A DNA stretch of 64,000 nucleotides from assembly GCA_913020435.1 (NCBI GenBank), contig CAJVZZ010000006.1:1-64000 (forward strand). Reading direction: 5' to 3'. Below are positions 6,941-50,794 of this stretch, piece by piece. Made by a program: the position numbers and the translations under genes. The notes below the pieces were generated by a model that saw nothing but the letters and a program-made list of their open reading frames with translations, searched no databases and was not told the origin of the DNA. The stretch's first letter is position 1. Every line of letters begins with the position of its first letter. This stretch comes from an uncultured Flavobacteriales bacterium. Lineage in GTDB: Bacteria; Bacteroidota; Bacteroidia; Flavobacteriales_G; Salibacteraceae.

Positions 6941-6977
6941 TATAGCGCTGTTAAACTATTGTTAAAGCATTTTGAAA

Positions 6978-47672: not shown

Positions 47673-49415
47673 TTAAACTGAATCCCCTCTAACATCAGAA
47701 TTAACATCGTAGATATGATCACCTAACTTCTCAGCTGAAGATATTAAATCAACGAATATCAATCCAGCTTTTATATTATAATCGCCTTTTTCAATACTCT
47801 TGAGATGTTGTTTTCTAAACTTAGATCTAAGGTAATTGATTTCATCTTCTACTTTTCTAGCATCATCTTTCTCAACATTAGCATAAGATCCATCAAGATT
47901 ATCTTGCATGATTAAGATAGCCTCATTTACTTTCAGAAAAAGCTCTATTAAATGTTCGCGCTGCTCTGGTGTAAACCACACCTTTTCTTCAACCTTACGC
48001 TCAATCACCTTAGACATTTGATACATTACGTCTGCCGCTCTTTCCAAATCGTTAATGGCACTTAACATACTTCGGATAGTAATAGAGCTTTTTTCGGATA
48101 ATTCAGTTTCTGAGAGTTTAATTAAATATTGGCCTACCTCTACCTCTAACTGATCAGCAATATCTTCATATTTATGTATCTTTTTTAGCTTTTTCCGAAT
48201 AACAGAAGCATCGGTTTCTAAAAGAAGCAGATCTAAATGTTTCATCATCTTAGCAATAACTTTCCCGAAATTGCTTATCTCTTTTTTGGCTTCTAGAAGT
48301 GATAATTCCACGGAAGCCATAACACCACCACCAATATACTCTAATGAAAATTTCTCATCATCTTCATCTTTTGGCTTTACCATTTTCTCTGCTATTGCAG
48401 CTAGTTTATGAGCGAATCCAATTAACACCACCACATTAATTAGATTAAACATAGTATGAAATGCCGACAATCCATAAGTAACAGATGTAACACGTGTTTT
48501 CATATCATCTTCATTCAAGTTAGCTAAATCAATATTATTGCCCCATTGCAATGGAGAAGGAAAGCCCATACCCATAGCAACAAACTCTACGAACTGAAGG
48601 AAAAACGGAAAAATCAATAACATCCACGTTACTCCAATAATATTGAATAATGAGTGAATTCTTGCCGAACGTTTCGCATGCACATTTCCTACTATTGATG
48701 CCAACTCAGCCGTAATTGTTGTACCAATATTTTCTCCTAAAACCATCGCTGCAGCTACATCAAAAGGAATCCAACCTTTTGCCACTAACACCAAGGTAAT
48801 TGTCATTGATGCACTTGAAGACTGCACTACAATCGTTAAAATTGTGCCTATTGCAATAAAAATAAAATAAGAACCATATCCCCAATTTGCAAAAGCTTGT
48901 AAGAACTGCAATATATCAGGGTTATGTTTAATATCAGGCACAGCACTTTTAAGAAAATCCAGCCCCATAAAGAGCAATGCAAACCCAATTAAAAACTCAG
49001 CCCAAAACCGCCAATTACCCTTTCGAATAAACATCATGGGAAAAGCGACAGCAATTATTGGTAGTGCCATAGCGGCAATCTTTATTTTAAAACCAAGAAT
49101 AGAAACCAGCCATGCGGTTATGGTTGTCCCAATGTTTGCACCCATCATAATTCCTGCCGATTGAATTAGTGAAAGCAAACCTGCATTCACAAAACTCACA
49201 GTCATTACAGTGGTTACAGAAGAAGATTGAACCAACGCAGTAATCAAAAAACCAGAAAGCACTCCTAAGTAGCGATTCCTAGTCATAGTGCCCAAAACTT
49301 TTTTAAGCTGAGCTCCTGCTGCCTTTTGAATGCCTTCGCTCATCACCTTCATCCCATAGATAAAGAACCCTAGGGCGCCCACTACTTTTAACGCATCAAA
49401 TACTCCAAATTCCAT
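47673..49415 (-). CDS. Na+/phosphate cotransporter with PhoU-like C-terminal domain
   Basis: A 580-residue NptA/PNaS-family transporter. Two inverted Na/Pi cotransport repeats each contain the QSSS signature (ALVQSSSVTTVMTVSF and VVQSSSASMTITLVL), within 8-9 spans; the C-terminal ~200 residues are a helical PhoU-like domain. The frame extends to a GTG at 49430, but that codon overlaps a -7 box, so the ATG at 49415 is preferred. Divergent from an OprO/P-type porin across a region with Pho-box-like repeats, indicating joint phosphate acquisition. Confidence 0.93.
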   Translation of the reverse strand: MEFGVFDALKVVGALGFFIYGMKVMSEGIQKAAGAQLKKVLGTMTRNRYLGVLSGFLITALVQSSSVTTVMTVSFVNAGLLSLIQSAGIMMGANIGTTITAWLVSILGFKIKIAAMALPIIAVAFPMMFIRKGNWRFWAEFLIGFALLFMGLDFLKSAVPDIKHNPDILQFLQAFANWGYGSYFIFIAIGTILTIVVQSSSASMTITLVLVAKGWIPFDVAAAMVLGENIGTTITAELASIVGNVHAKRSARIHSLFNIIGVTWMLLIFPFFLQFVEFVAMGMGFPSPLQWGNNIDLANLNEDDMKTRVTSVTYGLSAFHTMFNLINVVVLIGFAHKLAAIAEKMVKPKDEDDEKFSLEYIGGGVMASVELSLLEAKKEISNFGKVIAKMMKHLDLLLLETDASVIRKKLKKIHKYEDIADQLEVEVGQYLIKLSETELSEKSSITIRSMLSAINDLERAADVMYQMSKVIERKVEEKVWFTPEQREHLIELFLKVNEAILIMQDNLDGSYANVEKDDARKVEDEINYLRSKFRKQHLKSIEKGDYNIKAGLIFVDLISSAEKLGDHIYDVNSDVRGDSV

Positions 49416-49429
49416 GACCAGATTTTTCA

Positions 49430-49437
49430 CAAAAATA
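49430..49437 (-). promoter_or_regulatory. -7 box for the Na/Pi transporter gene
   Basis: The minus strand reads TATTTTTG (plus-strand CAAAAATA), a TAnnTTTG match ending 15 bases before the ATG at 49415. The GTG at 49430 overlaps it and so cannot be the start. Confidence 0.55.
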
Positions 49438-49468
49438 CCTTAGGATTTTACCCAGTAATTATGTTCAA

Positions 49469-49485
49469 TGTTAACTAAATGTTAG
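49469..49485 (-). promoter_or_regulatory. Pho-box-like direct repeat facing the Na/Pi transporter
   Basis: Plus strand TGTTAACTAAATGTTAG; read on the minus strand it is CTAACA, five bases, TTAACA: two half-sites with an 11-bp period, as in Bacillus-type PhoP boxes (TTAACA). It lies 32 bases upstream of the minus-strand -7 box, in an activator position. Inference from motif and neighbours. Confidence 0.45.
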
Positions 49486-49543
49486 GCTTTTTAACATTTA
49501 AAAACCCATTCCTCCTGAATAGCCCGTAAAACCTAAGGAAATA

Positions 49544-49577
49544 CATTAAGGTTATGTAAACATTAAGATTACGTTAA
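49544..49577 (+). promoter_or_regulatory. Pho-box-like double direct repeat facing the porin
   Basis: Two tandem 17-bp units, 14 of 17 positions identical when aligned from 49543 and 49560. Each unit holds two half-sites with an 11-bp period: CATTAA (49544), TGTAAA (49555), CATTAA (49561), CGTTAA (49572). The last half-site ends 20 bases before the porin -7 box, where an activator would contact RNA polymerase. Confidence 0.45.
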
Positions 49578-49597
49578 AACTTAGAAAAAAACTCTAA

Positions 49598-49605
49598 TAG
49601 TTTTG
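49598..49605 (+). promoter_or_regulatory. -7 box for the phosphate porin gene
   Basis: TAGTTTTG, ending 28 bases before the ATG at 49634. There is no good -33 element; the tandem repeats just upstream occupy that position, as expected for an activator-dependent promoter. Confidence 0.55.
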
Positions 49606-49633
49606 CAGCACATATTAACCCTACATATCTATA

Positions 49634-50794
49634 ATGTTAAGAAAAGTACTCGTTTTCTTTATCTCAATATTAATTTCAGTTGGTTCTTTTGGTCAAATTT
49701 CAAAACTTACCAAAGAGAAATACGCAAAAGGAATCCGCTTTACTGGCCCTGACAGCTCTTTCTATGTGAAATTTGGGCTAAGGATGCAAAATCTTGTAGT
49801 AGTTACCGCTCCAGAAGACGGACCAGCAGAAACGAGAGCATTAGTTAGACGATTCCGATTCAAATTTGATGGATGGATACTAAATCCTGATTTTATTTAT
49901 AAGATTGAAGTAGGGCAATCTAATATTGATGTCGGCGGTGGTAGTAATTTATTGCTTGACGCTGTCTTAAAATACCACGCAGGAAAAAACTTATGGATAT
50001 GGTTTGGCCAAACTAAGCTACCAGGGAATAGAGAAAGAGTTGTTTCATCTCAAGCCTTAGAAACAGTAGATCGAAGTGCATTAAATTCTGCTTTTAATGT
50101 TGACAGAGATATGGGGCTTCAATTAAGGCACTCAATAAATTTAGGTAAAACGGTGATTCGAGAAGCTGCTTCCGTTAGCGGTGGTGAAGGACGGAATTGG
50201 TCGGTGGGAAATTCTGGAGGATTGTGTTATACTGGTCGGATAGAAGTTTTACCTATGGGTAATTTTTCTAGTAAAGGAGACTATTTCCTAGCTGATCTTA
50301 AGCACGAACAAAAACCTAAAATTGCTTTTGGTGCAACATATGATTTGAATGATCTAGCATCAAAATCGAAAGGTCAAAGGGGAACGGAACTTCAATTTCA
50401 ACGTTCGTTGCATAGTTACATGGCAGATATACTTTTTAAATTTAAAGGTTTCTCTATATTCTCTGAGTTTATTCAAAAGGAAACAAATGATCCCTACGGA
50501 AGGAAAGAAAAATTTCTTGACCCTACAATAACAGGAACTTTTACAACTGGTTATGGCTTTAATGGTCAAGCAGGCTATGTTACAAAATCAGGCTGGGGTG
50601 CAGTTGGACGTTTTACTAATGTAACTCCAGATTCTGAAACTTTACTAACTGAAAACAATCAATACACTCTTGCATTTTCAAAGTATATCGTTAACCATAA
50701 GTTTAAAATTCAAACCGATGGAACTTACATTGATAACCTCGGGACTAAAGCAAATGTATTTATGTGGAGATTCCACATGGAAGTTGGATTTTAA
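49634..50794 (+). CDS. OprO/OprP-type phosphate-selective porin
   Basis: A 386-residue outer-membrane porin. Signal peptide residues 1-20 (cut after SFGQ). RMQNLVVVTAPEDGP, RRFRFKFDGWILNPDFIYKI and the repeated amphipathic strands (WIWFGQTKLPGNRERVVSSQ) are the OprO/P family pattern; the last residue is Phe, as required for barrel insertion (MWRFHMEVGF). The divergent Na/Pi cotransporter suggests that phosphate is taken through this porin and then across the inner membrane. Confidence 0.9.
   Translation: MLRKVLVFFISILISVGSFGQISKLTKEKYAKGIRFTGPDSSFYVKFGLRMQNLVVVTAPEDGPAETRALVRRFRFKFDGWILNPDFIYKIEVGQSNIDVGGGSNLLLDAVLKYHAGKNLWIWFGQTKLPGNRERVVSSQALETVDRSALNSAFNVDRDMGLQLRHSINLGKTVIREAASVSGGEGRNWSVGNSGGLCYTGRIEVLPMGNFSSKGDYFLADLKHEQKPKIAFGATYDLNDLASKSKGQRGTELQFQRSLHSYMADILFKFKGFSIFSEFIQKETNDPYGRKEKFLDPTITGTFTTGYGFNGQAGYVTKSGWGAVGRFTNVTPDSETLLTENNQYTLAFSKYIVNHKFKIQTDGTYIDNLGTKANVFMWRFHMEVGF

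Follow-up and report, generated by a model that had tools for sequence, protein, structure and literature searches.

The window analysed here is a stretch of 64,000 nucleotides of contig C6, part of the 2.95-Mb genome of a marine Bacteroidota, which is 98% complete and consists of 50 contigs. Within it, a gap of 203 bp (49431-49633) separates two divergent genes, the one on the minus strand encoding a Na/Pi cotransporter and the one on the plus strand an outer-membrane porin. A preliminary description of the locus had named these as a Na/Pi cotransporter and an OprO/P-type porin, and domain searches agree, with Na_Pi_cotrans and PhoU matches in the first protein and a Porin_O_P match in the second. 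The features of the locus are listed here in order of position; scores in bits refer to the phoB-promoter motif described below.

47673-49415, minus strand: Na/Pi cotransporter with a C-terminal PhoU domain (PF02690, E 1.7e-58; PF01895, E 2.9e-9)
49430-49437, minus strand: -7 element TATTTTTG of the Na/Pi promoter, 7 of 8 columns invariant in five genomes
49469-49485, minus strand: box A, the Na/Pi-proximal Pho-type box, CTAACA-N5-TTAACA, with two half-sites and an 11-bp period (11.8 bits)
49544-49549, minus strand: possible extra half-site TTAATG, seen in the sequence, out of the 11-bp register and 6 bp from the last half-site
49550-49577, minus strand: box B, the porin-proximal Pho-type box, TTAACG-N5-TTAATG-N5-ATAACC, with three half-sites in one 11-bp register (two motif matches, 14.8 and 11.4 bits)
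49598-49605, plus strand: -7 element TAGTTTTG of the porin promoter, TAnnTTYG being kept in five genomes
49634-50794, plus strand: outer-membrane porin of the Porin_O_P family (PF07396, E 8.4e-6, weak but above the cut-off)

Judged from the sequence, the Na/Pi gene most likely begins at the ATG at 49415 (49413-49415, minus strand) rather than at the called GTG (49428-49430); the Met-Glu-Phe-Gly N-terminus of the protein is kept in relatives. It is worth adding that the GTG start given by the ORF caller overlaps the -7 element of the gene's own promoter, and that the mRNA leader would be very short if the gene begins at the ATG.

Promoters and repeats in the shared gap

Both promoters of the gap are of the TAnnTTTG type and are conserved. 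Their -7 boxes are found at the positions first described (49437-49430 on the minus strand and 49598-49605 on the plus strand), and it is also correct that neither has a good -33 element, there being no TTG or TTTG at the expected spacing upstream of either -7. Between box B and the porin -7 downstream of it there are 20 bp; box B covers the -33 region, which contains no TTG. The Na/Pi promoter is likewise without a -33 TTG, yet here box A sits upstream of the -33 region.

The repeats themselves lie where the preliminary description had placed them, box A at 49469-49485 on the minus strand and the porin-side set within 49544-49577, for which the plus strand reads CATTAAGGTTATGTAAACATTAAGATTACGTTAA. 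On the minus strand box A is CTAACATTTAGTTAACA, which divides into CTAACA-TTTAG-TTAACA, and box B is TTAACGTAATCTTAATGTTTACATAACC, with its half-sites TTAACG, TTAATG and ATAACC at 49577-49572, 49566-49561 and 49555-49550 respectively (GGTTAT-N5-CATTAA-N5-CGTTAA on the porin coding strand). Direct repeats with an 11-bp period, a trait of Pho boxes, are found in both. The porin-side set had been described as a tandem doubled version of box A. The 11-bp period stands, but three half-sites in one register fit better than two doubled pairs; at only 6.4 bits, the 17-mer at 49544-49560 is a weak match. The two sets had further been called mirrored, which has to be corrected. All of the half-sites read as the TTAACA type on the minus strand, and the three strong motif matches (at 49469, 49550 and 49561) are all on that strand, so boxes A and B are tandem in orientation.

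Relatives of the organism were compared, the close named ones being metagenome-assembled Flavobacteriales, one of them labelled Crocinitomicaceae. A comparison of orthologous gaps had been proposed in the preliminary description; five genomes have the same divergent pair, with porin identities of 64-100%, and when their gaps are aligned the boxes are seen to be retained. Invariant columns make up 15 of 17 in box A and 13 of 21 in the core of box B, compared to 27 of 139 in the remainder of the gap. The distance from box A to the Na/Pi -7 is 31, 31, 31, 32 and 31 bp in the five genomes. Indels are scarce throughout the gap, and this spacing therefore adds only modest evidence.

The PhoB-like regulator and the motif of its promoters

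The genome encodes four OmpR-type DNA-binding domains. One of them belongs to a PhoB-like response regulator on contig C17 (31930-32601), whose two best families are the NCBIfam Bacteroidetes PhoB and PhoB (NF053854 and TIGR02154), with scores below the curated cut-offs of both (215.2 against 270, and 211.3 against 296.2). ArcA is absent among its 25 best NCBIfam families. The kinase that adjoins it is closest to PnpS and PhoR, and two of the other OmpR-type regulators are RprY-like. Orthologues of the PhoB-like regulator, with 50-73% identity, are present in 107 of the 119 sampled genomes of the class, several of which have two or three copies.

Divergent from the phoB-like gene there are a gene for a lipoprotein without a Pfam family and one for a TonB-dependent receptor (both within L137:4922-8000), and both directions of this divergent promoter carry motif matches. 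The lipoprotein has the N-terminal signature GCTDSTATNYDEKAK and matches neither Pfam nor NCBIfam. In relatives of one genus, g8, a lipoprotein with the same signature precedes the porin and Na/Pi genes, which are there co-directional and probably form one operon; and several relatives, those of g8 included, have the porin and Na/Pi genes no more than a few kb from that of the regulator.

A motif was learned de novo, by unseeded EM, from the regions upstream of the PhoB-like gene in 22 genomes of the family, with the organism's own genus left out and the coding part trimmed. The best motif is TTAACAttgacTTAAtc, that is TTAACA-N5-TTAAYM with an 11-bp period. In a count over 26 genomes, own genus included, pairs of half-sites 11 bp apart occur 13 times in the phoB-like promoters compared to 0.4 expected (z 18.8), with additional peaks at spacings of 16, 22, 27 and 33 bp. 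The motif is present at phoB-like promoters across the class, being carried (p<0.05) by 16 of 25 orthologous regulator promoters from its other families, with a combined p of about 1e-15. We note that in the own genus and near genera (L078-L084) an in-frame upstream ATG would put the start of the phoB-like gene almost directly after the box. This start annotation is doubtful: an internal ATG may be the real one, with a -7-like AAATTTG in between.

When the motif was run over both strands of the window, its top match was box B (49550-49566, 14.8 bits), and three of the nine best matches, namely box A and both frames of box B, fall in the 203-bp gap. A binomial calculation gives this a chance of about 3e-6, which rises to about 3e-4 when the two overlapping matches are treated as one. 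In 264 kb of the same genome, the gap is the sole place with two matches of at least 11 bits within 120 bp. Single matches with comparable scores are found elsewhere in the genome; those in the 264 kb sampled lie mostly inside genes and were treated as background. The preliminary description had suggested looking for the repeats at other phosphate genes of the genome, and the region upstream of the phoB-like gene turns out to carry 20 of the 21 bases of the porin box. In a search of the whole 2.95 Mb with box B, which has no mismatch at the gap itself, this copy (C17:32660, 1 mismatch in 21) is the only other close match, the next best having 2 mismatches. Genome-wide statements made here are based on pattern searches together with the 264 kb of stretches.

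Most other relatives also have motif matches upstream of the porin gene. In genus g8 the matches lie upstream of the porin start at distances of 46-66 bp and about 189 bp; the porin upstream region of relative G006 contains no motif match, and that of relative G021 had too little sequence to score.

By contrast with the weighted motif, the plain pattern TGTTAAN5TGTTAA is not in excess, either in the window (15 found and 21.5 expected, at up to 2 mismatches) or in the genome, where its 91 matches are fewer than the 186 of the reversed control. Pattern counting alone is therefore no evidence, and it is the weighted motif and the conservation that support the boxes. On these grounds the repeats are real and far above chance. 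An exact TGTTAA-N5-TGTTAA (11.8 bits) is also found at 6949-6965 of the window, in the space separating a phosphatidylserine-decarboxylase-like ORF from the gene that comes after it.

Possible regulation of phosphate uptake

We put at roughly 0.8 the probability that the gap is a shared regulatory region with two predicted binding boxes for the PhoB-like regulator of contig C17. Given that the boxes are of the same kind as the one before the phoB-like gene itself, the flanking genes are very probably under that regulator, an arrangement that would be ordinary and sensible. The PhoB/PhoP-type operator proposed in the preliminary description is thus well supported, by the box at the phoB-like gene, by the conserved gaps, and by the neighbourhood of regulator, porin and Na/Pi genes in relatives. 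What the analysis shows directly is the boxes with their period, their conservation, and their occurrence at phoB-like promoters throughout the class. That the regulator binds here, that phosphate is its signal, and that it activates, above all at the Na/Pi gene, we infer from the sequence.

The mechanism that we envisage begins with low phosphate, on which the PhoR-like kinase would become active and the PhoB-like regulator would be phosphorylated. Phosphorylated dimers would then bind the runs of half-sites head-to-tail on one face of the helix, as is suggested by the repetition of the half-sites every 11 bp. On box B, lying over the absent -33 element, the regulator would most likely recruit RNA polymerase, so that scarcity of phosphate turns the porin gene on. 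The Na/Pi gene would be regulated, probably upward, through box A, some 31 bp upstream of that gene's -7; this box would act from roughly a turn farther upstream, and its orientation with respect to its own promoter is the opposite one. The box upstream of the phoB-like gene would create a feedback loop. Coordinated activation of the porin and Na/Pi genes is plausible.

Searches for PstS (PF12849), Pit (PF01384) and PhoA (PF00245) detected none in the 98%-complete genome. No PhoU (PF01895) was detected in the genome outside the Na/Pi protein, which itself has no paralogue there at E 1e-3. The porin and Na/Pi pair of the window therefore looks like the main phosphate entry route, and may indeed be so. 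We hypothesise that the fused PhoU domain of the Na/Pi protein could replace the usual Pst-PhoU sensor. A more far-reaching and distinctly doubtful proposal is of a phosphate circuit that has no Pst-PhoU sensor, in which the Na/Pi-PhoU fusion would be a target of the regulator and would also serve the PhoR-like kinase as its partner for reading phosphate uptake.

The alternative that survives best is that the same response regulator binds the boxes, but as a broad envelope or redox regulator for which phosphate is not the main signal. We consider this unlikely, though a real possibility. Nearly all sampled genomes of the class have the regulator, and its motif resembles the ArcA box with its 11-bp direct repeat. 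There is also a precedent in Riemerella anatipestifer, another member of the Flavobacteriales, where one study reports 583 DAP-seq peaks for PhoP with a core TTTAACA that was likened to the ArcA motif, and an EMSA that confirmed the site upstream of PhoP's own operon (PMC9603813). A phoPR mutant of this species had 8-fold more pstS and changes in about a third of its genes, and the authors doubt that phosphate is the signal (PMC5399024). Riemerella PhoP is similar to the regulator described here in its order, in being an OmpR-family regulator with a PhoR-type kinase, and in the TTAACA core; it differs in its very many sites and in the raised pstS of the mutant. A broad regulator is less easily reconciled with the rarity of the box in the genome, with its clustered form being confined to the gap within 264 kb, with the best second copy of box B being at the PhoB-like gene, and with the phosphate-type genes that are its neighbours in relatives.

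Rather unlikely, in our view, is regulation in opposite senses, the porin being activated and the Na/Pi gene repressed on starvation, with the Na/Pi-PhoU protein as a low-affinity carrier or an exporter. The E. coli protein YjbB, which is composed of Na/Pi and PhoU, exports phosphate. The position of box A, which is farther upstream and oriented the other way with respect to its promoter, would also be consistent with a different effect. The sign of regulation at the Na/Pi gene is in fact the most doubtful part of our preferred reading, because its counterpart in Bacteroides fragilis, the Na-dependent phosphate transporter BF4351, shows a PhoB-dependent 101-fold drop when phosphate is low (PMC3547664). 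Against repression, no candidate importer is better than the Na/Pi protein, given that PstS and Pit are undetected in a 98%-complete genome, and the co-directional porin and Na/Pi genes of genus g8, probably one operon, favour the same sign for both.

It is very unlikely that a different OmpR-family regulator, of the RprY type or the fourth one, binds the boxes: members of the family share similar direct-repeat sites, and one RprY-type operon (L135) has a weak match of 9.3 bits about 30 bp upstream, but the motif was learned from the PhoB-like gene's own promoters, and the second RprY-type operon (L136) and the fourth regulator have no match of 9 bits or more. That the boxes are AT-rich chance repeats without function, as the lack of excess of the simple pattern in window and genome might suggest, is scarcely credible in view of the invariance of box A across genes with no more than 64-92% identity, the outcome of the blind motif search and the near copy of box B at phoB, which already disfavour it.

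Relation to known systems

PhoB regulons and the half-site core are already known in the phylum, and the DNA signature is to this extent largely known. The suggestion that the half-site may not have been described for the phylum has to be withdrawn, since the Riemerella PhoP motif with its TTTAACA core is published (PMC9603813). In B. fragilis, PhoB binds the pst promoter, low phosphate raises an OprO-type porin through PhoB, and a second such porin, BF2289, went down (PMC3547664). The PhoRB regulon resembles the system here in having PhoB-dependent phosphate genes that include an OprO-type porin, and differs in that pst genes are present and the Na-dependent phosphate transporter is down in low phosphate. 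In Flavobacterium johnsoniae, phoB and phoR cluster with an OprP porin, a TonB-dependent receptor and a phosphate-induced lipoprotein, and the OprP gene of the phoBR operon did not respond to phosphate (PMC8115612). The present genome resembles this cluster in the lipoprotein and TonB-dependent receptor genes that diverge from phoB, and in relatives the porin is part of the cluster too; the difference is that the F. johnsoniae OprP gene was not induced.

The ArcA and PhoB boxes have in common an 11-bp direct repeat, in which three or more half-sites may follow one another (PMC3798270). The boxes here are like those of E. coli in being direct repeats of this period that can grow to three or more half-sites, and the half-site TGTTAA on the porin coding strand resembles TGTCAT. 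They differ from the E. coli PhoB box in the bases of the half-site, and the promoter here is of the Bacteroidota -33/-7 type. Gram-positive PhoP boxes consist of TTAACA repeats with an 11-bp period, usually four in number; compared with the boxes here, the half-site sequence and period are alike, and the phylum and usual repeat number differ.

In the open-access literature we found no paper on the 17-bp matrix or on this promoter pair. The matrix is a usable weight matrix for the box of a phosphate regulator in Bacteroidia, and could serve to predict the phosphate regulons of uncultured marine members. The locus also points to lineages that seemingly run phosphate uptake on a Na/Pi carrier and a porin, rather than on Pst. 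In such seemingly Pst-less lineages, the way in which the kinase senses phosphate becomes a testable question.
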